In this document: positions 1 through 19,165 of the stretch, in pieces
How the letters are laid out: every line of letters starts with the position of its first letter
Position numbering within the stretch: position 1 is the stretch's first letter
Translations under genes and position numbers: made by a program
From: a virus
Reading direction: 5' to 3' (one strand)
Length of the DNA: 25,786 bases
Virus record (IMG/VR): IMGVR_UViG_3300008450_000395
Coordinates: 1-25,786 of that record
Notes under the pieces: model-generated
The model's database searches: none
Told to the model about the DNA's origin: nothing
Seen by the model: the letters and a program-made list of their open reading frames with translations, nothing else

Positions 1-138
1 TATATTTGTTTGGTCATTAACTTTAGTGTTAGTGATCATTGATGCTAATATTTGAAATTGTTTAGCAGCAGGTTTTGGTTCTTTAGGATCTTCAATTGGT
101 GTAAAATCCTCTTCCTCTTTAACTATGCGAATTTTCAT
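1..138 (-). CDS. Partial unknown protein, N-terminal 46 residues
   Basis: The reading frame is open from an ATG at 138-136 to the left edge of the window, so only the first 46 residues are visible and the C-terminus is missing. The start overlaps the stop of the upstream Dps-like gene by one base (TAATG), which suggests translational coupling. The protein begins MKIRIVKEEED and continues with a charged, proline-containing stretch. Its first five residues match those of the P-loop kinase that starts at 4174. I do not recognise the family, and too little is present to assign a role. It is probably the next member of the accessory gene string. Confidence 0.75.
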   Translation of the reverse strand, partial: MKIRIVKEEEDFTPIEDPKEPKPAAKQFQILASMITNTKVNDQTNI

Positions 139-713
139 TATTGTAAGTTTACTAATTTGTATTTAGTTGATTCAACTAATTCAACAAATGTATCAATTTG
201 GTTTTGAATGTATGAATCTTGAGGTAACATTTGACGGTTTTTCTCAATGTACATACATAATGCTTCAAAATATTTTATAGCATCAGTTGGATTTTCAATC
301 CACTGTCCTTCACACTTATAACCAGTAATGATACCATAGCGACCTTGAAATGATTCAACTAAACCATCAATTAATGGAATGATACCTTCATAATATGCTT
401 GTAATGCTGTATGAGCAGCAAAAGCACCTGGTCCTTTAACTTGTAAATGGAATATATGAGATTGTGTGCGAGAAGCAAAAAAAGTTGAGACAAAAGAAGC
501 CATAGCTTGTGTTGGGTTAGGTAACTCAATAGTCACTGCTAATTCTGGTTGGTTTGGATCAATTGTTTCTGGTTCAAATCCTTCTTTAAGATTTCCGGAT
601 TCAGCGGCGTATAACGCCTTCATGTATTTTTCAGCAGCGGCTGCGTCTTTAGAGCAGCCCATTTTCTTGCCAGTTTCTTTGTATACGCAATTACCTTTAC
701 GAGTATAGGGCAT
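138..713 (-). CDS. Dps/ferritin-like protein with basic N-terminal extension
   Basis: This 191-residue protein has two parts. Residues 1-40 are a basic, two-cysteine segment (C9, C20) rich in Lys and Arg. Residues about 70-190 look like a helical ferritin/Dps-type domain. In it H89, G94, H101, D116 and E120 have the same mutual spacing as the E. coli Dps ferroxidase positions H51, G56, H63, D78 and E82; the position equivalent to Dps D67 is Gln105. I associate such phage proteins with the uncharacterised DUF5856 group, from memory. Iron oxidation or DNA protection is an inference. The start is the only sensible ATG after a 53-base gap, and the stop overlaps the next ATG. Whether it forms a Dps-like cage cannot be seen from sequence. 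Confidence 0.6.
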   Translation of the reverse strand: MPYTRKGNCVYKETGKKMGCSKDAAAAEKYMKALYAAESGNLKEGFEPETIDPNQPELAVTIELPNPTQAMASFVSTFFASRTQSHIFHLQVKGPGAFAAHTALQAYYEGIIPLIDGLVESFQGRYGIITGYKCEGQWIENPTDAIKYFEALCMYIEKNRQMLPQDSYIQNQIDTFVELVESTKYKLVNLQ

Positions 714-715
714 AA

Positions 716-739
716 TTATATAGATTTTATCCTATATAA
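716..739. repeat. 8-bp perfect inverted repeat in the gap before the Dps-like gene
   Basis: TTATATAG (716-723) and its exact complement CTATATAA (732-739) flank an 8-base spacer. The right arm overlaps the intergenic ATATTTATA element. The stem is all A/T except for one G-C pair and is not followed by a U-run in the coding direction, so it is not a convincing terminator. An operator or a weak RNA hairpin is possible. Confidence 0.35.
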
Positions 740-743
740 ATAT
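735..743 (-). promoter_or_regulatory. ATATTTATA intergenic element, copy 1
   Basis: The coding strand reads ATATTTATA 21 bases upstream of the ATG at 713, in the 53-base gap. It is the same 9-mer found in seven other gaps, always in this orientation. Its function is unproven. Confidence 0.4.
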
Positions 744-766
744 ATTCAGGAGCAATAATAAGTAAG

Positions 767-1042
767 TTATATTTTACCTTTCTCGAAAAATTCAACTTTA
801 GTACGAAGTGTAGCTACTTCTCTAGTGAGTTCTAATATCATTTTACGCAACTCATCTTTTTCACGAGCGGATTCAACTAGTAATGCTTCTAGTTTTGATA
901 TTCTATCTTTACAGTCATGACGAATAAATTCTTCATCACGTTCTTTACGCATTGATTTTTTTTCATAGAATCGAAACGCGGCAGCACTACCTAAAACTGT
1001 AACTGCTGTCATTAAAACTGTGTAGATATTGTCTTGATTCAT
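767..1042 (-). CDS. Small membrane-anchored coiled-coil protein (spanin- or holin-like candidate)
   Basis: This 91-residue protein has one hydrophobic segment at about residues 7-24, followed by basic residues (KKSMRKER) and then a long charged helix from about residue 45 to 88 with heptad-like Leu/Ile spacing. That layout (short N-terminus, single membrane anchor, soluble coiled coil) is typical of inner-membrane spanins and some phage membrane proteins. No overlapping or adjacent lipoprotein gene for an outer-membrane spanin was found, so lysis is only a guess. The ATG is preceded by an ATATTTATA element only three bases away. The gene follows the zinc-ribbon gene by 14 bases. Confidence 0.6.
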   Translation of the reverse strand: MNQDNIYTVLMTAVTVLGSAAAFRFYEKKSMRKERDEEFIRHDCKDRISKLEALLVESAREKDELRKMILELTREVATLRTKVEFFEKGKI

Positions 1043-1045
1043 GGG

Positions 1046-1054
1046 TATAAATAT
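1046..1054 (-). promoter_or_regulatory. ATATTTATA intergenic element, copy 2
   Basis: The coding strand reads ATATTTATA and ends three bases before the ATG at 1042, in a 14-base gap. That is too close to the start codon for a standard -10 promoter of this gene. Confidence 0.35.
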
Positions 1055-1056
1055 CT

Positions 1057-1632
1057 CTATACTTGTGCTTCGCGCAATTTCTTAATGTATTCTTTAACAT
1101 TTTTAATTTCTTCCTCATTGATCTTACCACCTCCCCAATGTTCTACATCGCCTTGTTCAGTCATATATGATTCGCTTTGGCTAGCATAAAAATCTTCAAT
1201 GGCTTTCTCAAAATCATCAACCATAGCGTTTTTATTAGAATTCATCATTTGTGACTGGTATTCATCCCATTTACCTTCTAATTTGATTTTGGCTTCCATT
1301 TCTAAAACACAATCAAAGCATTTATGATGAATTGACCACATCTTTTTACTAATGTCATCATTCTTCATTGGTTTACTACATTCAGGGCACGCAATAGGTA
1401 TGATAAACATTTTTTTAAGTCTATCAAACTTAGTTACAGTTTGTTTAATACCATTTTTAATGGTCCATTGTTTACCATTTTCTTCCCAAATGTCACCTTC
1501 TGTATAATCTTGAGATTGTTTACTATAACCTACTTGTACACCTGTAGAACCACCAGCATTACCTGTGATGATATTCCTCATTCTTTGTACATCACGTTTC
1601 GAAAACTCTTTTTTTAAATTTGTATCACTCAT
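1057..1632 (-). CDS. Zinc-ribbon protein of unknown function
   Basis: The reading frame is open further upstream, but the ATG at 1632-1630 is chosen because it forms an ATGA overlap with the stop of the upstream fusion gene; an upstream start would bury 26 residues in that gene. The 191-residue product has a zinc-ribbon-like set of ligands: C82 and C85 (CPEC), then H102/H103, C105 and C108 (HHKCFDC). The N-terminus (KEFSKRDVQRMRNIITG) is basic and helical, and the C-terminus is acidic with a run of glutamates. I have seen similar N-termini in hypothetical proteins of marine T4-like phages, from memory, but know no function. A role in nucleic-acid binding is an inference from the zinc ribbon and the basic N-terminus. 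Confidence 0.75.
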   Translation of the reverse strand: MSDTNLKKEFSKRDVQRMRNIITGNAGGSTGVQVGYSKQSQDYTEGDIWEENGKQWTIKNGIKQTVTKFDRLKKMFIIPIACPECSKPMKNDDISKKMWSIHHKCFDCVLEMEAKIKLEGKWDEYQSQMMNSNKNAMVDDFEKAIEDFYASQSESYMTEQGDVEHWGGGKINEEEIKNVKEYIKKLREAQV

Positions 1633-3428
1633 AAACCTAAATCTTTCAATTGTTGTATTGTGTCGGCTGCTGATGTATGGACAATTCCAATACCACCAGC
1701 GTCTTTCCAACGTTGTATATTATCAGCTCTATCATCAATTAAGATAGAGTTTGGTGTTGCGAATTCTTGTTTACGTTCTGCTTGACGTAATATAAGTTTA
1801 GTACCAGGAACATTTCTTTTCACCCATACAAACTTACCTATCTTAGATGATTCGTCTCTTGATGGAGCTGATAGTAAATCTGGATTGTATGGTTTAATAA
1901 ATTCCCATAATTTTTTTCCATCAGGCATCCATTGTAATTTAATCCAAAATGAGGCGCCTGCTTTTTGAATAGGAGCCCAAAATTCTTCTTTAGGTGTGTC
2001 AAAGCTAGCTTCTCTACCTGTTAATTCTTTATATCCTTTATCAAAATCAACAATAACACCATCCATATCACAATATATCTTATAATCAGCTTTTTCTTTA
2101 GCGTCTTCTTCAAATATTTCTGGTCTGTATTTACCAAATTGTCTTAATAACACACCAGCAGCAGCATTAGCTTCATTTTCAATTGGTGAACCAGTAGCCC
2201 CATCTTCTTTACTTAATGGATTTAATTCATCTTGTTTACGATGTACTAATTCATGAGCTAATGTACGTAAAATGTCAGCTGTTAGTCTTGGTCCTTTAAC
2301 AACTAATAATTCATCACTTTTAGGATTATAAGCACCTAATGAATGCATGTTTTTAGCTAATTCTTGATCATCACTAAAAGTAATTTTAGGTACTTTTTGT
2401 AAGTCAAGTGCTTTAGCAGCAAAATCAATAAAGTCAGCTATAACATTATCTGATGCTTCTTGAGGCTCAGTTAATGTTTCTTCTAATGTTGATTTCCACC
2501 ATTTAATAGTGAATAGATCTTCTTCTACGTTAATAGCTATACCTTTTTTAGATAACCAATTAAGTATTTTCTCACGTTGATATGGATCATCACTTAAATT
2601 AGGTATTAACATACGACGTTCTTGTCCACCAAATGCTTGTTGTGAGTATTCAAATGGAACTAACATTGTATTAAGATAGTTCTCAATTTTAGGTGTTAAT
2701 TTATAAGGTACTCTTATAATTATGTTTCCGTCTTCTTGATTTTCTTGTAATTGGTCAGCATCTAAAACAGGAATACCTAGTATTCTCATTATTGCTTCAA
2801 ATTGTCCTTTTTGAATAACTGCTTCTGGGAAGCAACCTTCAAGTATTTTTATATTATTTAAATACTCATTTCTAGCCTTTGAGTATTCATTTGAATTTTT
2901 ATCTTTAATAGATCTTAATTTTAAAACGGATGCTTTAACAGTATCTATTAATTGGCGAACTTGAGTACCTGATAGACGTTTACCTTGGCTAACTATTTTT
3001 TCCTCAATAGATATAGGCATTACTCTATTACCAAATGCTTTTTGTAATGAAGAAAAATATCCTTGATCTTCAACTTCTTCCTTAGCACCAGCAACATATA
3101 CCTTCATTTCTAAATTATTATCCATTATTCCAAAAATATCTTTAATTGGAGATGGATCTTTAGACATTTCAACTGATACTTTAGCTATTGGAGCAGCAGC
3201 GAGATATAAATCCCATATTTGCTTACTCATTTTAGAAGTAATACCATCACGTTCTTTTTGTCCTACTAAAATAATTACTTTAGATATATTAGGACATGAA
3301 GCTAAATCTTTAGCTGCCTCATAATGTCCTTCATGTGGTGGTTTGAATCCACCTGGATAATAAGCAACAGCTGAAGGGTTAGTTTGGTCGTCGTTTAGTT
3401 CGCTTAATATAGTATTTAAATCTATCAT
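1629..3428 (-). CDS. Nucleotidyltransferase / HExxH peptidase / HAD phosphatase fusion
   Basis: The 599-residue protein strings three recognisable enzyme folds together. Residues about 20-165 form a cytidylyltransferase/NMNAT-type domain: the H32-E-G-H35 motif follows a GGFKPP loop, and LSGTQVR at 152-158 matches the family's ISSTxxR signature. Residues about 185-320 are unassigned. Residues about 325-435 carry H392-E-L-V-H396 with downstream acidic candidates E417 and E419, the layout of a zincin metallopeptidase. Residues 449-599 are a HAD phosphatase resembling 5'(3')-deoxyribonucleotidases: D454-M-D456-G-V, then LSAPSR near 520, and D565/D566. The gene overlaps the kinase stop and the next start by ATGA, so the three are probably co-translated. 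NAD metabolism, nucleotide turnover and nucleic-acid end repair are all possible; the substrate cannot be read from sequence. Confidence 0.75.
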   Translation of the reverse strand: MIDLNTILSELNDDQTNPSAVAYYPGGFKPPHEGHYEAAKDLASCPNISKVIILVGQKERDGITSKMSKQIWDLYLAAAPIAKVSVEMSKDPSPIKDIFGIMDNNLEMKVYVAGAKEEVEDQGYFSSLQKAFGNRVMPISIEEKIVSQGKRLSGTQVRQLIDTVKASVLKLRSIKDKNSNEYSKARNEYLNNIKILEGCFPEAVIQKGQFEAIMRILGIPVLDADQLQENQEDGNIIIRVPYKLTPKIENYLNTMLVPFEYSQQAFGGQERRMLIPNLSDDPYQREKILNWLSKKGIAINVEEDLFTIKWWKSTLEETLTEPQEASDNVIADFIDFAAKALDLQKVPKITFSDDQELAKNMHSLGAYNPKSDELLVVKGPRLTADILRTLAHELVHRKQDELNPLSKEDGATGSPIENEANAAAGVLLRQFGKYRPEIFEEDAKEKADYKIYCDMDGVIVDFDKGYKELTGREASFDTPKEEFWAPIQKAGASFWIKLQWMPDGKKLWEFIKPYNPDLLSAPSRDESSKIGKFVWVKRNVPGTKLILRQAERKQEFATPNSILIDDRADNIQRWKDAGGIGIVHTSAADTIQQLKDLGL

Positions 3429-4174
3429 TTAATGAATGCCTTTATTTTAGCAACCGCTGTAGCAGCAGGTGTGAATTTTGGTTGTTGTTGAATTGCTAAC
3501 TCAATATCTTTATTTAATTGAGCAATATCAGCTTTTGCCTTTTCTATTTCTTCAGGTGTTTTTGGTTTACCTTTAGCTTTTGATGTGTCAAAAAATCTAC
3601 GTTTTATTTCTTGTGGGTCAAAACTTTTATCAGCGTCTTTAGGATCATTATTTATGACAACTAAATTGTCACCAAATGCTTGCTCATATGTTTCAATATT
3701 ACTATTAATATCTCTCCATGTTCTTAAAACAATACCTGGCATTAATGAGCGTTCTCTATTAGCATTACGTTCAAGTGATGTTATTGGAGAAACATATATC
3801 ATTACCATCATTGTTTCATACCCTAAAGCCTCTAATTCTGCCTTTTTCTTGAGTAATGGTTTAGATGCCGCACCTGTTCCATCAATAATAATGTCGTTTA
3901 AATTTTCAAGTGCTTTGGCGTATTTTTCCTTAGTTGATTTTTGGGCTTGAGCCATTAATTTACCAGCTTGTGACAATTGTTCAGGATCAAAATCCTTTTG
4001 TTTCATGCCTAAACCAGATGCCTTAAGCAATTCTTCATAAGTATCGTCAACATTTATTACTTGGAATTTAGATAGTGGTAAAGATTTGGCGATAAATGAC
4101 TTACCAGCACCTGCTGGGCCCGCCATGAATATTGCCTGTGGCGTTTGTTGCGCTTCTTTAATTCTAATCTTCAT
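3425..4174 (-). CDS. P-loop kinase, zeta-toxin/polynucleotide-kinase-like
   Basis: This 249-residue protein has a clear Walker A motif (GPAGAGKS, residues 19-26), a following NVDD acidic motif (D43/D44) and an IIIDGTGAASK strand-loop near 95-105. An Arg-rich lid region (RNANRERS, 137-143) comes before a long helix. This pattern fits the zeta-toxin/AAA_33 kinases and the kinase half of phage polynucleotide kinases; the phosphate acceptor is unknown. The C-terminal 50 residues are a Lys/Glu-rich helix. It begins MKIRIKEA, like the truncated gene at the left edge. Its stop overlaps the ATG of the downstream fusion enzyme (ATGA), so kinase and HAD phosphatase activities are encoded side by side, as in T4 Pnkp but on separate chains. 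Confidence 0.75.
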   Translation of the reverse strand: MKIRIKEAQQTPQAIFMAGPAGAGKSFIAKSLPLSKFQVINVDDTYEELLKASGLGMKQKDFDPEQLSQAGKLMAQAQKSTKEKYAKALENLNDIIIDGTGAASKPLLKKKAELEALGYETMMVMIYVSPITSLERNANRERSLMPGIVLRTWRDINSNIETYEQAFGDNLVVINNDPKDADKSFDPQEIKRRFFDTSKAKGKPKTPEEIEKAKADIAQLNKDIELAIQQQPKFTPAATAVAKIKAFIK

Positions 4175-4177
4175 ACC

Positions 4178-4186
4178 GATAAATAT
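4178..4186 (-). promoter_or_regulatory. ATATTTAT intergenic element, copy 3 (one mismatch)
   Basis: The coding strand reads ATATTTATC three bases before the ATG at 4174. The last base differs from the other copies, and the first base lies in the stop codon of the AT-hook gene. Confidence 0.3.
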
Positions 4187-4668
4187 TAACTATCCTTCCT
4201 TGGGCGTCCACGTTTTCCGCCAGTCTTAACGTACACTGTTGATTTCTTTAATGTTGGGTCCATTTTTGGACGGCCACGTTTACCACCAGTTTTAACATAT
4301 ACAGTAGGTTCTTTTTTAAGTGATGGATCCATTTTTGGACGACCACGCTTACCTGTACCTTTACTTGTACGTATTTTTTCAGCTTTGGCTTTACGTTTAA
4401 AGTATCTAGGATGTATAATTAATGAGTCAGTGTGAAATGCTCTACTAGCACCTGTAGTATCAGTACATTCATATCCACCACCTTTCCAACCTGGAGTTCC
4501 GTCTGGGTGGTATTTTTTGAAGAAGAATTTATTGCCGTTATCACTTTCATAATATTGAGCAGGTAATACTTCAATACCTTCAGTAAAATTCAAGTATTCT
4601 TGTTCATTAACTTCTACCACATATGCTTTACGCGGGTAGATAGGTGCTTCTACATCAATTACTTTCAT
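4186..4668 (-). CDS. Triple AT-hook DNA-binding protein
   Basis: The 160-residue protein has an N-terminal domain of about 95 residues that I do not recognise, with aromatic residues and a GWKGGGYECTD motif. Its basic tail contains three AT-hook cores: RGRPK at 108-112, RGRPK at 131-135 and RGRPR at 153-157. They are separated by near-identical spacers (MDPSLKK and TVYVKTGG). AT-hooks bind the minor groove of A/T-rich DNA, which suits this A/T-rich genome. The three repeats differ at many synonymous positions, which suggests the protein sequence is being conserved. The start lies 5 bases after the previous stop and shares 14 bases of leader (AAATAAAAGTTATG) with the gene starting at 4877. Genome organisation, transcription control and host nucleoid takeover are possible roles. 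Confidence 0.75.
   Translation of the reverse strand: MKVIDVEAPIYPRKAYVVEVNEQEYLNFTEGIEVLPAQYYESDNGNKFFFKKYHPDGTPGWKGGGYECTDTTGASRAFHTDSLIIHPRYFKRKAKAEKIRTSKGTGKRGRPKMDPSLKKEPTVYVKTGGKRGRPKMDPTLKKSTVYVKTGGKRGRPRKDS
4189..4350 (-). repeat. Three tandem in-frame AT-hook coding repeats
   Basis: The 3' third of the AT-hook gene encodes three copies of a KRGRP(K/R) core. The first two repeats are 23 and 22 codons long and the third is truncated by the stop. Codon use differs between copies. Confidence 0.7.
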
Positions 4669-6921: not shown

Positions 6922-7350
6922 CTAAACCAAATCTTTAGTAAAAAACTTGCCTAATATATTATCATTGTAAGATTTATTGCTACTAATTAACACTTCTTCT
7001 TTACATTGATAGTGCATTTCCCAATATGTGAGTTGTTTTTTAGTTAGACATTGTTTAAATATCCAACATTCAAATTTATCCTCTCCATATTGTTTTATGT
7101 CTGTGAGCAATTGTTTATTAGAACCCCAATATGTTTTCCAGTCACTTTCAACACGAACTACTTCATGTGTGGGTTTGCGACCTGGTGTGGGTGGAAGCTC
7201 AGCGAGTTGTTTTTTAGTGAGTTTTTTCTTTTTATTATGCCAATAGACCTTTTTACCAACATAAAACTTACCAGTTTCTTTGTTAGTTATTTTGTAAATA
7301 AATCCAAAATATTTTTCTGGATTGATTTCTTCTCGTCCTTTCCATTTCAT
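6922..7350 (-). CDS. GIY-YIG nuclease, likely homing-endonuclease-like
   Basis: The 142-residue protein shows the GIY-YIG fold in order: GFIY (16-19) and FYVG (29-32) in place of GIY and YIG, a basic stretch with K33/K34, WGSNK near 75-79, then an E111 in TYWEMHY as the candidate metal-binding glutamate. The rest, about 30 residues, is too short for a large DNA-binding domain, though the KKKKLTKK stretch at 40-47 is very basic. It sits exactly where the tail gene block ends and replication genes begin. Free-standing GIY-YIG genes of this kind in T4-like phages (Seg type) are selfish elements. A repair nuclease is the alternative. Confidence 0.75.
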   Translation of the reverse strand: MKWKGREEINPEKYFGFIYKITNKETGKFYVGKKVYWHNKKKKLTKKQLAELPPTPGRKPTHEVVRVESDWKTYWGSNKQLLTDIKQYGEDKFECWIFKQCLTKKQLTYWEMHYQCKEEVLISSNKSYNDNILGKFFTKDLV

Positions 7351-7372: not shown

Positions 7373-8347
7373 TTAACAGGCAGTAGAACCATCTACTGTT
7401 ATATATACGTTATTAGTTCCACCACTCACAGCGCCATAGTTGTAAGTACATCCAAATCCAGATGATGGACAAGGTGATGTTGAAGAACCAGCTATAGCAT
7501 ACGCACTAACAACATCAAATGTCACTGTATCACCAGGTATTAATCCAGTTATTGTATATAAGTAATCACAAGTTGATGATAAAGTAAGAGGAATTTCATT
7601 GAAAGTTCCACTATTAATTTTATATCTTAAAGTACCACCACTGTTTATATATTTAGCATATACTATTAAAGAAACACTACTAGGAGGTGTTGTTGAAGGT
7701 GTCACACTAGGTGTCACACTAATACTTGGTGTTGTGCTTGGAGTTACACTAATTGAAGGTGTTACACTAGGTGTCACACTAATACTTGGTGTCACACTTA
7801 TACTAGTTGTAGCAGAAGGTGTTACACTAGGTGTCACACTAATACTTGGTGTCACACTTATTGAAGGTGTAACTGAAGGTGTAACTGTTGGTGTTGGAGG
7901 TATAAATGATGGTGACGGAGTCATTGATGGTGTCACTGAAGGAGTAAAGTATGGTTTATTAATCCATTGGGTGTCATATTTAACTAAAAATGTCATATCA
8001 GTGTTAGATGATAATGGCATTGGTGAAGCTAATTTTGCTACTGCTAATAAATCTCCAGCATCATTATATAATCCTATTTCACTAGTGTATGGAGAAAATT
8101 CTGAACCTGTAGTGAATGGTTTTAATATACCAAAATATTCTGAGCCTGTTGGATTGAAAAATACATCTCCACCAACTGAAGAACTATATGGGAATAAAGC
8201 AGCTTGAGAACCTGATAATAGAGACGGATTATAACTTAAATTAAATTCATAATCCTTAATAGTACACTTAATAAAATTCTCATAAACAGTATGACTGTTT
8301 TGAAATTTTATTCTTGTGATTCCTGTATTTAATGTTCTACTATTCAT
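7373..8347 (-). CDS. Tail fibre/adhesin with SVTP linker, Cys-terminated head (1)
   Basis: The ATG at 8347 is used, giving 324 residues; it lies two bases after the previous stop, and the frame's earlier TTG would overlap that gene. Residues about 1-130 resemble the C-terminal domain of the protein encoded at 10340-11431 (shared GLYN[11 protein letters not shown] motif), suggesting a common docking fold. About 90 residues of Ser-Val-Thr-Pro repeats form an extended linker. The C-terminal head of about 100 residues contains four cysteines in or near TCDY, SPCPSS, FGCTY and the final STAC, so it ends in Cys like its two paralogues. A role in host-receptor binding is inferred from architecture. 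No secretion signal is seen. Confidence 0.65.
7680..7950 (-). repeat. SVTP-coding low-complexity repeat, fibre 1
   Basis: In-frame 12- and 18-base units (GGTGTCACACTA on the plus strand encodes the reverse of PSVT) repeat across this stretch. It is coding, and near-identical units occur in two neighbouring genes, so recombination between them is possible. Confidence 0.8.
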
Positions 8348-8349
8348 AA

Positions 8350-9048
8350 TTAACAAGCAAAAGTTGATGGATTTACAGGTGCATCAATATAATTAACACA
8401 AACACTATTTACATCATAATTACATCCTACATAAGCACCACCTCCAGCACAAGGATCACTATTATTATAACTTTGACCCGCTAAAATTGTACCATAAGCT
8501 TGATATGTGTATTGGTATATGTTGTATTGATATAATTCAATAGATAAAATATAATTTGTATCAACTAATACAGGTTCAAGTAATGTTATATCCCATCCTA
8601 AATAATCATCACAACTTCCTCCTGTACAAGGTTGAGTACTTGCGTTTGCTCCTATAACTCTAGGAGCATAACCAACAGATGGTGATGGTGTTATACTTGG
8701 TGTTACAGTTGGTGTTACACTAGGTGTAGCAGATATAGAAATAGATGGAGTCACACTTGGAGTTACACTTGGTGTACTTGGTATACTTGGACTTACACTA
8801 ATACTTGGTGTCACACTAGGTGTAACAGTTGGTGTCACACTTGGACTTATACTAATACTTGGTGTTAAACTAATTGTAGGTGTAACACTTGGGCTAGCTG
8901 ATGGTAATGGACAAAAAGCTAAATCTAAAAATGGAGCTATATAATCAGGATCACTAATACTATTAGTTTTAGTCACACCAGTAGCAACACCATTATCTAA
9001 ATAGTATTGTTCTAGGTCTGTATATGCTTTAAATCCTGTATTACTCAT
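8350..9048 (-). CDS. Tail fibre/adhesin with SVTP linker, Cys-rich head (2)
   Basis: This 232-residue protein has the shortest N-terminal part of the three fibre paralogues (about 50 residues, starting [16 protein letters not shown]). About 80 residues of SVTP/SISP repeats follow, then a head of about 95 residues. The head has cysteines in [20 protein letters not shown] and SVCVNY and at the final residue (STFAC). Pairing into disulfides is plausible but cannot be seen. The N-terminal segment is unlike those of the neighbours, so this may be an accessory tip joined to another fibre. The gene begins four bases after an ATATTTATA element and ends two bases before the next fibre's ATG. Confidence 0.65.
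8675..8905 (-). repeat. SVTP-coding low-complexity repeat, fibre 2
   Basis: This is the same class of in-frame Ser/Thr/Pro-coding units as in the other two fibre genes, here with more SISI and SPSI variants. It is coding, not an array of spacers. Confidence 0.75.
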
Positions 9049-9052
9049 TTTT

Positions 9053-9061
9053 TATAAATAT
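9053..9061 (-). promoter_or_regulatory. ATATTTATA intergenic element, copy 5
   Basis: The coding strand reads ATATTTATA followed by AAAA and the ATG at 9048. Only four bases separate it from the start codon. Confidence 0.35.
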
Positions 9062-9063
9062 TT

Positions 9064-10329
9064 TTAACAAGCTCCATCTGCTAAAATAATCTGAACTGTT
9101 GTAGTATTATTTATTACAAGACCAGTAAATGAAATAGTTCCATTTCCAGTCACATTTTGTTGATAATAATTTGCACCACTGTCTGTTACTTGAATACATC
9201 CATTCAATGTAAATCCACCTATTGAGATATTCAAAGTTTCATTATTACCAGTTTGGTTAGTAGCAAAACCATGTCCATCAGTACTAAACGGAACATTAGT
9301 TCCACTTGTTAAGGTAGGTGTTGATCCATTCACATCAATAGCTGTGACACTATAACCACCTGCACCAGTTGTAGCATCAAAATATAAACTACCTGATAAG
9401 GTAGGAGGTGTTGTTGATGGGGTTACACTAATTGTTGGTGTTACACTTATTGAAGGAGTTGTACTTATTGAAGGTGTTACACTAATTGTTGGTGTTACAC
9501 TAGGTGTTACACTTGGTGTTGCACTTGTTGATGGAGTCACACTTGGTGTGCTTGGTATACTTGGACTTACACTAACACTTGGTGTCACACTAGGTGTCAC
9601 ACTAATACTAGGTGTAATACTTACTGAAGTAGTCACACTAGGTGTTACAGATGGAGATGCTTGAACACAGAAAGGATTAGCTCCTCTCCAAGCTGTAGCT
9701 CTCATACTATTAGGTACAACAGTAATTATAGCAACATTCTGTTCATAGAATATATTTCCTACTTGTGAACCTGCTACTAAAGTAGTTCCAATAGATGAAC
9801 CTACAGGACTTCCACTATAAAATAAATTATAGTTTCCGTCATCATAAAATTTATAATCAACAGAGGCACTATTTAAAAACACTTCAAATGTACCAGGTAA
9901 TATTTTTTCACTGGTTAAAGATCTAGGTATGTTTAAAACATAGATAGAAGCATTAGCTCCTGTTGGGAAAAATTTAACTGTATCTAAATTACCTAAATCA
10001 ACTAATCCTCTATTATAAGACTGAGTAGTTAAAGTACCATCATTAAGTGTGGTGTTTTGTCTTTCAGTTAAATATAAAGATGAAGCTGATGGTAAAAACT
10101 TAGGATAATAAATCATATTGATAGAATTGTAAACCAATCTATCATACTGACCATTAGTTATGTATTCACTATTAGGATCAAATATAGATCCACTATAATT
10201 AACTCCTAAGTTGACTACAATTCTATGATCAGCAAATGAGCCGGATGAAATATCCCAGCTTTTATTCGCTGTATATGGTACTACGAAAGTATCAGATACA
10301 CTAAATCTCTTGTAAACATCTGCTGACAT
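9064..10329 (-). CDS. Tail fibre/baseplate protein with SVTP linker, Cys-terminated head (3)
   Basis: The 421-residue protein has an N-terminal beta-rich domain of about 220 residues. It includes the pattern I-P-R-x(6)-I-L-P-G-T-F and later VGNIFYEQNVAIIT, which mirrors the adjacent 10340-11431 protein (R-F-K-E-S-I-N-P-G-S-F and GIMIPDEGLIIL); the two are probably paralogues in the baseplate or fibre base. An SVTP linker of about 85 residues follows, then a head of about 110 residues with cysteines at NGCIQV and the final DGAC. No catalytic motif is seen. This is likely a virion-attached fibre whose head differs from those of the two genes downstream, and the whole set may present several receptor-binding heads. 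Confidence 0.65.
   Translation of the reverse strand: MSADVYKRFSVSDTFVVPYTANKSWDISSGSFADHRIVVNLGVNYSGSIFDPNSEYITNGQYDRLVYNSINMIYYPKFLPSASSLYLTERQNTTLNDGTLTTQSYNRGLVDLGNLDTVKFFPTGANASIYVLNIPRSLTSEKILPGTFEVFLNSASVDYKFYDDGNYNLFYSGSPVGSSIGTTLVAGSQVGNIFYEQNVAIITVVPNSMRATAWRGANPFCVQASPSVTPSVTTSVSITPSISVTPSVTPSVSVSPSIPSTPSVTPSTSATPSVTPSVTPTISVTPSISTTPSISVTPTISVTPSTTPPTLSGSLYFDATTGAGGYSVTAIDVNGSTPTLTSGTNVPFSTDGHGFATNQTGNNETLNISIGGFTLNGCIQVTDSGANYYQQNVTGNGTISFTGLVINNTTTVQIILADGAC
9405..9660 (-). repeat. SVTP-coding low-complexity repeat, fibre 3
   Basis: In-frame Ser/Thr/Pro-coding units, with several blocks identical at DNA level to those at 7680-7950 and 8675-8905. Confidence 0.8.
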
Positions 10330-18565: not shown

Positions 18566-19165
18566 TTAAGCTAGTAAGTGATGATATTCTTTGAAGTGCT
18601 TAATACGATCAGCTAAACCAATAGTACCACCGTTAACACGTTTAGTAATTTTAGTTACAACTGCGTCAGTAGCGCCTTCATCAGCCATTTTATGTAAACC
18701 ATTTTTATTAAAGAACCAAGCAGCTGATAATAAAGCATATTTGTCGGCTACTGATGTTGGATCTTTTGTTAAGTCTTCATTAATAGATTTACCAAATGCT
18801 GTGTAGTTATCTTTACCTGTTAATTGGATATAACCACGACCGCAGAATTTAGCGCCGTCGCCAGATGATTCAGGACCATTACCCATTCTATTACCATACA
18901 CTTTGTTGGCAATTTTTTCAGGTTGTCTAGCGTATGCTGCGGCTGCTGCTTCAGTTGGAAAATATTTTTTGAAAGTGCCTGTTAAACCCTTAGCACTATA
19001 GTTTAAGTTTTCTTTAGTTAGTCTAAATCCACCTGATTCGTGACCACATTGAGCTAAGAAGTGTGCTAAGCGTAATGGAGTGTTGATTTGGAATTTTTCC
19101 ATTACTCCAGGAATTTGGCTAATTACTTTGTCAGGAATGTGTCCTTTTAATTTGTCTAAATTCAT
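18566..19165 (-). CDS. GH19-family lysozyme/chitinase (endolysin or tail lysozyme)
   Basis: The 199-residue protein matches phage GH19 endolysins in length and motifs. HFLAQCGHESGGF holds the likely catalytic acid E43, followed by KKYFP (66-70), NRMGNGPESSGDG (92-104) and the GRGYIQLTGKDNY motif (109-121), which is a hallmark of the family. GH19 enzymes in phages cut peptidoglycan glycan strands. There is no signal peptide or membrane segment, so export would need a holin, or the protein could be virion-borne. Its position between the gp6-like and DNRLRE-like baseplate genes, rather than near a holin, is unusual for a lysis gene and leaves open a role in entry. Confidence 0.85.
   Translation of the reverse strand: MNLDKLKGHIPDKVISQIPGVMEKFQINTPLRLAHFLAQCGHESGGFRLTKENLNYSAKGLTGTFKKYFPTEAAAAAYARQPEKIANKVYGNRMGNGPESSGDGAKFCGRGYIQLTGKDNYTAFGKSINEDLTKDPTSVADKYALLSAAWFFNKNGLHKMADEGATDAVVTKITKRVNGGTIGLADRIKHFKEYHHLLA

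Follow-up and report, generated by a model that had tools for sequence, protein, structure and literature searches.

We analysed a 25,786-base virus record (IMG/VR record IMGVR_UViG_3300008450_000395, hereafter the window) and focused on an operon on its minus strand, in which a P-loop kinase gene is followed by a gene for a 599-amino-acid polyprotein and by a third, shorter gene (Table 1). The kinase stop codon and the polyprotein start codon overlapped as ATGA at 3425-3428, as an earlier note on this DNA had described, and the polyprotein gene overlapped the third gene in the same manner at 1629-1632, a point beyond that note.

Table 1. Features of the operon and the adjoining region of the window, with putative tags and cut sites
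Feature	Position	Strand	Details	Basis
P-loop kinase open reading frame (ORF), zeta-toxin/AAA_33 type	3425..4174	-	249 amino acids, start MKIRIKEA	Pfam, PDB profile
Putative targeting/propeptide tag of kinase, MKIRIKE	4154..4174	-	IKE followed by A	end [LIVMF]xE as in relatives
Polyprotein	1629..3428	-	599 amino acids; tag, nucleotidyltransferase, middle module, zincin, HAD	ORF, alignment, model
Putative capsid-targeting tag of polyprotein, MIDLNTILSE	3399..3428	-	hydrophobic 4, 7, 8 and E10	model, alignment
LSE at polyprotein tag end	3399-3407	-	residues 8-10	alignment
HxGH nucleotidyltransferase domain, NadD/PPAT-like	2919..3371	-	residues 20-170	Foldseek, motifs
Middle module	2499..2918	-	residues 171-310; partly deleted in L010	alignment
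LQE, putative gp21-type cut site	2742..2750	-	residues 227-229, invariant; low-confidence linker	alignment, model
LEE	2478..2486	-	residues 315-317, L and second E invariant; low-confidence linker 301-323	alignment, model
IrrE-like zincin	2109..2453	-	residues 326-440	model, Foldseek, alignment
Zincin HELVH	2241-2255	-	residues 392-396	sequence
Zincin invariant Glu417	2178-2180	-		alignment
IFE ahead of HAD, putative cut site	2109..2117	-	residues 438-440	alignment
HAD phosphatase, 5'(3')-deoxyribonucleotidase type	1632..2090	-		PHROG, PDB
HAD DMDGV	2055-2069	-		sequence
Third overlapping gene	1057..1632	-	191 amino acids, Cys-pair motifs	ORF, comparison with immuto
Downstream gene with DUF5856	138..713	-	Pfam 1.6e-16	Pfam

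The kinase matched Zeta_toxin (2.3e-11) and AAA_33 (1.7e-8) in Pfam, and zeta toxin 1gvn and PezT in PDB profile comparisons. The AlphaFold model of the whole polyprotein had a mean predicted local distance difference test score (pLDDT) of 73.7 and a predicted template modelling score of 0.39, values at which the relative placement of the domains is meaningless. By Foldseek, the nucleotidyltransferase resembled NadD/PPAT structures (5deo, 2qtm and others; best E 6e-5), and it carried HEGH at residues 32-35 and SGTQVR at residues 153-158. The middle module (residues ~171-310), a region that the earlier note had passed over, gave no match in the Pfam scan. The HAD phosphatase matched PHROG 2643, a 5'-3' deoxyribonucleotidase (1.9e-26), and PDB 3bwv.

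The zincin was assigned from a separate structure model because Pfam and PDB profile searches gave no identity: the best Pfam match was DUF6782 at E 0.16, the PDB profile search returned nothing convincing, and the domain did not appear in the first Foldseek search with the whole polyprotein. Modelled separately from 59 diverse sequences (137 residues, pLDDT 89.7), it had IrrE/PprI and small gluzincins of the abylysin and selecase types as its top PDB matches (probability 0.91-0.99, E 0.01-0.04), and the H, E, H and downstream Glu residues were invariant in all 59 members. By this predicted fold, supported with high probability and modest E-values, the HExxH segment is suggested to be an IrrE-like zincin. 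It shares the fold, HExxH and the downstream Glu with IrrE/PprI-type peptidases; it differs in sitting within a phage polyprotein, its PDB match is weak in E-value, and, unlike for those peptidases, no DNA-damage or repressor partner was recognised near the operon. The PADLOC defence families gave no match. The earlier note had joined an HxGH nucleotidyltransferase, an HExxH zincin-like domain and a HAD phosphatase in one chain, and Foldseek, modelling and profile matches all agree with that architecture, including a zincin fold for the HExxH segment. The catalytic motifs were also intact in most relatives, with PPxxGH in 160/167 and an SGTxxR-type motif in 140/167 nucleotidyltransferases, HExxH in 149/149 zincins and the IDD motif in 164/165 HADs.

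Relatives were collected by scanning IMG/VR with three profiles; each scan gave hundreds of relatives, of which 80 per profile were kept, and the counts given here are therefore samples. After removal of identical proteins, the matches listed comprised 161 lone kinases, 94 lone HADs, 90 nucleotidyltransferase-zincin chains, 60 nucleotidyltransferase-zincin-HAD chains and 7 kinase-HAD chains, besides rarer architectures. With the two-domain chain in 90 and the three-domain chain in 60 distinct proteins, an artefact of sequencing does not account for the fusion. Three chains scored as nucleotidyltransferase-HAD actually hold an HExxH overlooked by the profile, and a zincin accompanied the nucleotidyltransferase in 150 of ~183 proteins among the matches listed. 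The modules occurred alone, paired, reordered, or combined with ART-, M91- and DUF5661-type modules. Long forms of 740-1160 amino acids carried further modules, among them M91-like zincins and, in L044, an ART-PolyVal-like module whose E of 1e-4 falls short of the family cut-off; DUF5661 was found in L007 (1e-12). In the cultured phage HTVC008M, separate genes close to one another encode the kinase, nucleotidyltransferase and nucleotidase, and in the cultured Flavobacterium phage immuto a nucleotidyltransferase-zincin gene is followed by a separate nucleotidase gene; the fusion therefore joins neighbours, and modules are exchanged. The kinase-HAD fusions (L049, L054, L047, L056, L045, L057 and L048) have the domain order of T4 Pnkp, with LAE or LNE linkers and no zincin. 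In L023 (5213-7936; immuto gp88), a protein annotated as NadR has an N-terminal segment like Pol-beta-type nucleotidyltransferases and a second HExxH.

The operon proteins begin with short segments that resemble the capsid-targeting signals of T4. In T4, the ten N-terminal residues of IPIII are enough to direct a protein to the capsid, residues 4 and 7 serving targeting and residues 8 and 10 processing, and the protease gp21 cuts after L/I-x-E (PMC9026906). T4 gp24 (MAKINELLRE), IPII/IPIII (MKTYQEFIAE) and Alt fit this pattern. The polyprotein likewise starts with about ten residues bearing the marks at 4, 7, 8 and 10 and ending in [L/I]xE; L8-x-E10 was kept in all close relatives, and residues 6-17 had low confidence in the model. 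Among gene-start kinases, which carry tags such as MISLVQLLKE, the exact pattern of hydrophobic residues at 4, 7 and 8 with E10 was found in 107/130, compared with 17/12,816 interior methionines.

The same mark, a hydrophobic residue, any residue and Glu directly ahead of a folded core, was common to the starts of single-domain genes and to the linkers of fusions. With shuffles of the very stretches scored as control, all internal HADs had [LIVMF]xE ahead of the core (44/44; shuffled 27.1 +- 3.2), as did 130/132 gene-start kinases (40.4 +- 5.1), 103/109 gene-start nucleotidyltransferases (58.0 +- 4.9) and 54/64 gene-start HADs (22.6 +- 3.3); the motif was likewise enriched on either flank of the zincin (z 7.4 and 12.6). 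At internal G[RV]YD sites, where a second zincin module starts in many long forms, it stood immediately ahead in 18/20; the remaining two are in proteins that appear unrelated. Six [LIVMF]xE positions of the window polyprotein were kept by 90% or more of its close relatives; five of these fall within linkers, which account for 9% of the chain (binomial p 3e-5, with linkers delimited by eye on the model). These linkers were disordered, with low confidence, in the AlphaFold model. The IFE position ahead of the HAD was displaced by one residue in two relatives (FTE, FSE), and an extra module was inserted at the LEE linker in L005, L007, L009 and L011, being DUF5661 in L007. Outside this set of relatives, the HADs of XacN1, L338C, CcrRogue, Phosso, phiM12, Cr30 and Atu_ph07 begin at the core, with neither the mark nor an N-terminal extension. 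Standalone HADs that lack the tag were seen in L016, L017 and other contigs, next to genes starting K..QL..[IL]I.E.., a second type of gene start that is possibly a different packaging signal.

Relatives also encode the machinery that such signals would address. Peptidase_S77 (gp21-type) genes were found in G005 (2.5e-30), immuto and HTVC008M, and the one in G005 lies directly upstream of the capsid gene. The major capsid proteins of relatives have a similar start tag and an LxE near the propeptide end, and the motif is also present in the relatives' protease. Across five genomes, tagged ORFs made up 42/163 in the interval from the operon to the capsid gene compared with 16/633 elsewhere, for which the Fisher value of 5e-19 is only indicative because the interval bounds were set by hand after the tags had been seen. 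Genome-wide, G001 and G011 showed a modest excess only.

Homologues have been reported in virions. According to PMC10665884 and PMC9602691, mass spectrometry identified NMNAT-like cytidylyltransferases in the virions of the cyanophages S-CREM2, S-SCSM1, S-CBWM1 and S-SZBM1, and the S-CREM2 enzyme begins with MKNFSSFLTEA, as we checked in its sequence. The virion enzymes of S-CREM2 and S-SCSM1 share the nucleotidyltransferase type with the polyprotein; the S-CREM2 enzyme differs in being a single 286-amino-acid protein without a fused zincin or HAD. The passages of these two papers contain no discussion of a packaging signal for the S-CREM2 or S-SCSM1 enzyme.

Taken together, we consider it likely that the operon encodes capsid cargo: a T4-type polyvalent protein that is packaged by its tag, cut by the prohead protease and injected. 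We infer the targeting, cutting and injection, as well as the substrates of the enzymes, as follows. While the head is being assembled, the short N-terminal tag would bring kinase and polyprotein into the prohead core, where a gp21-type prohead protease (Peptidase_S77) would take off the tag and cut the polyprotein after [L/I]xE in its linkers, freeing the nucleotidyltransferase, middle module, zincin and HAD phosphatase as separate enzymes. These would remain in the mature head, enter the host with the DNA and act ahead of phage gene expression. With one cut site in every linker, modules could be added or swapped while their neighbours stayed undisturbed. More generally, and with somewhat less assurance, we favour the view that aquatic T4-related phages carry modular polyproteins of injected enzymes, with prohead-protease linkers, that are diced in the capsid, the LxE seams being the joints of exchange. 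More tentatively still, the fold of the IrrE-like zincin suggests that it may cleave a host or rival regulator, and the nucleotidyltransferase, kinase and nucleotidase may act on nucleotides or cofactors.

Several observations weigh against this reading. The S-CREM2 enzyme was identified from three peptides only, and its authors call co-purification possible (passages of PMC10665884, PMC9602691); moreover, the virion data belong to homologues and not to proteins of this clade, for which packaging and cutting are predicted. LxE is a short motif, and an amphipathic N-terminal helix could serve another role. The tag pattern alone is not specific, because in a looser form it picked 12/220 T4 ORFs, with no more than 4 known gp21 substrates among them. 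In the window kinase, the tag has 7 residues instead of 10 and lacks the 4/7/8/10 spacing, while keeping the [LIVMF]xE end; the kinases of L007 and L197 have no tag, and 10/64 gene-start HADs lack [LIVMF]xE. In HTVC008M, the genome-wide count of tags showed no enrichment (2 compared with 2.6 expected), and the nucleotidyltransferase starts MKTLKELLRKK, without the Glu. The window fragment contains neither a prohead protease nor a capsid gene.

The signals admit other explanations. The tag could be another kind of short helix of late proteins, for example one for folding or assembly chaperones, with the domains staying joined; the shortness of LxE, the amphipathic pattern and the tagged proteins outside the cluster are compatible with this, yet the exact match to the spacing of a tested T4 signal and the retention of the motif at internal fusion points speak against it, and we consider it improbable. 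We give equally little credence to the main rival, a polyvalent protein cut at its linkers by its own zincin, before packaging or after injection. Such self-processing was proposed for zincin-containing polyvalent proteins by Iyer et al. 2017 (PMC5512222), and the zincin does accompany most nucleotidyltransferases. However, the seams also occur in fusions without HExxH (seven kinase-HAD, one nucleotidyltransferase-kinase), and single-domain proteins carry them at their starts as tags; the seams fit the specificity of S77 proteases, and the IrrE-like fold suggests other proteins as targets. As the sole mechanism, zincin self-processing was rejected, because seams persist where the zincin is missing. 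The earlier note had suggested that the fused protease processes a partner or the chain itself. Processing was the right direction, but the embedded protease is probably not the enzyme that does it, because LxE seams are present in HExxH-less fusions and close relatives encode a separate gp21-type protease.

The enzymes might instead work in the host cytoplasm during infection, the kinase, nucleotidyltransferase and nucleotidase forming one salvage or NAD (nicotinamide adenine dinucleotide) pathway with the zincin as regulator. The folds suit nucleotide or NAD chemistry, the genes are translationally coupled, and the enzyme genes lie near one another in HTVC008M (all three) and in immuto (nucleotidyltransferase and nucleotidase). 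A single pathway becomes less likely because the module set is not conserved: domains shuffle freely among relatives, being lost, swapped or mixed with ART- and M91-type modules. For phage NAD+ reconstitution, no partner of NMNAT/Namat was found among the recognised operon neighbours, which share tags, not a pathway, and homologues are reported in virions. The idea of the earlier note that one pathway joins these activities was thus not supported, and as the principal explanation it was rejected; we consider it improbable. End repair of RNA or DNA, with kinase and HAD acting on polynucleotide ends as in T4 Pnkp, had also been raised. The kinase matches the PHROG polynucleotide kinase (8e-7), and seven relatives fuse kinase and HAD in the Pnkp order, but zeta toxin and NT5C (5'-nucleotidase) match better, the latter by PHROG and PDB 3bwv, and no ligase was recognised beside the operon in the window. 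T4 Pnkp shares the combination of P-loop kinase and HAD phosphatase; it is one polypeptide, while the window has separate genes and different HAD and kinase families. We rejected end repair as very improbable.

Capsid cargo of this kind resembles two known systems. With the polyvalent proteins of PMC5512222 it shares several unrelated enzyme domains per chain, a zincin as the commonest domain and a predicted delivery with the DNA; the ART-PolyVal-like module of L044 provides a further, sub-threshold likeness. The polyprotein joins unrelated domains in one phage-encoded chain, and its modules are exchanged among relatives. A word search of the text of PMC5512222 found no NMNAT-like adenylyltransferase, HAD nucleotidase or zeta-type kinase, and, in distinction from that system, the LxE seams and capsid tags here point to a prohead protease and not to the embedded zincin. 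With T4 IPII, IPIII and Alt and their protease gp21 (PMC9026906), the operon shares the tag spacing and the [L/I]xE motif, together with an S77 protease in relatives and a gene cluster reaching the capsid gene. In T4, it is the ends of the cargo chains that are trimmed, whereas here several different enzymes appear to be joined by cut sites. What is new is the combination of polyvalent-protein architecture, T4 internal-protein signals and these enzymes. A literature search, with preprints and many subscription journals outside its scope, found no description of this combination, the nearest being PMC5512222.

The T4-type phages rank among the abundant viruses in natural waters, and little is known of the cargo that enters the cell along with their DNA. 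If capsid packaging is correct, the code of tag and seam would allow a list of the proteins that these phages inject to be drawn up from sequence alone, and the NMNAT-like enzymes in cyanophage virions would gain a mechanism. Should tag and seams carry the same meaning as in T4, the stretch from the operon to the capsid gene would hold many predicted injected effectors among genes now called 'hypothetical'. The reading also raises a testable point of principle, namely whether an effector polyprotein can be processed by a capsid maturation protease.

The surroundings of the operon were also surveyed. The 191-amino-acid third gene, in which no targeting tag was recognised, resembles immuto gp86, which adjoins the corresponding cluster in immuto. 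In the DUF5856 gene, a linker reading NLKE and followed by G separates the first 40 residues from the DUF5856 domain. The window also codes for T4-type baseplate genes (named through annotated relatives), a DnaG-like primase and a PD-(D/E)XK exonuclease, and a GH19-type endolysin gene lies within the baseplate gene cluster (18566-19165, minus strand). On the same strand, a 160-amino-acid protein (4186-4668) ends in three KRGRPxxD-type, AT-hook-like repeats, and a SegE-type GIY-YIG endonuclease (6922-7350; Pfam 5e-25) has as its best PHROG phrog_447, whose name 'NAD synthetase' is apparently a mislabel. Three neighbouring proteins with long Thr/Ser-Pro repeats (7373-10329, minus strand) are probably tail or fibre structural proteins. 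In L011, a 1092-amino-acid protein adjoining the operon (637-3915) looks, by eye, like a Bacteroidota outer-membrane TonB-dependent receptor.

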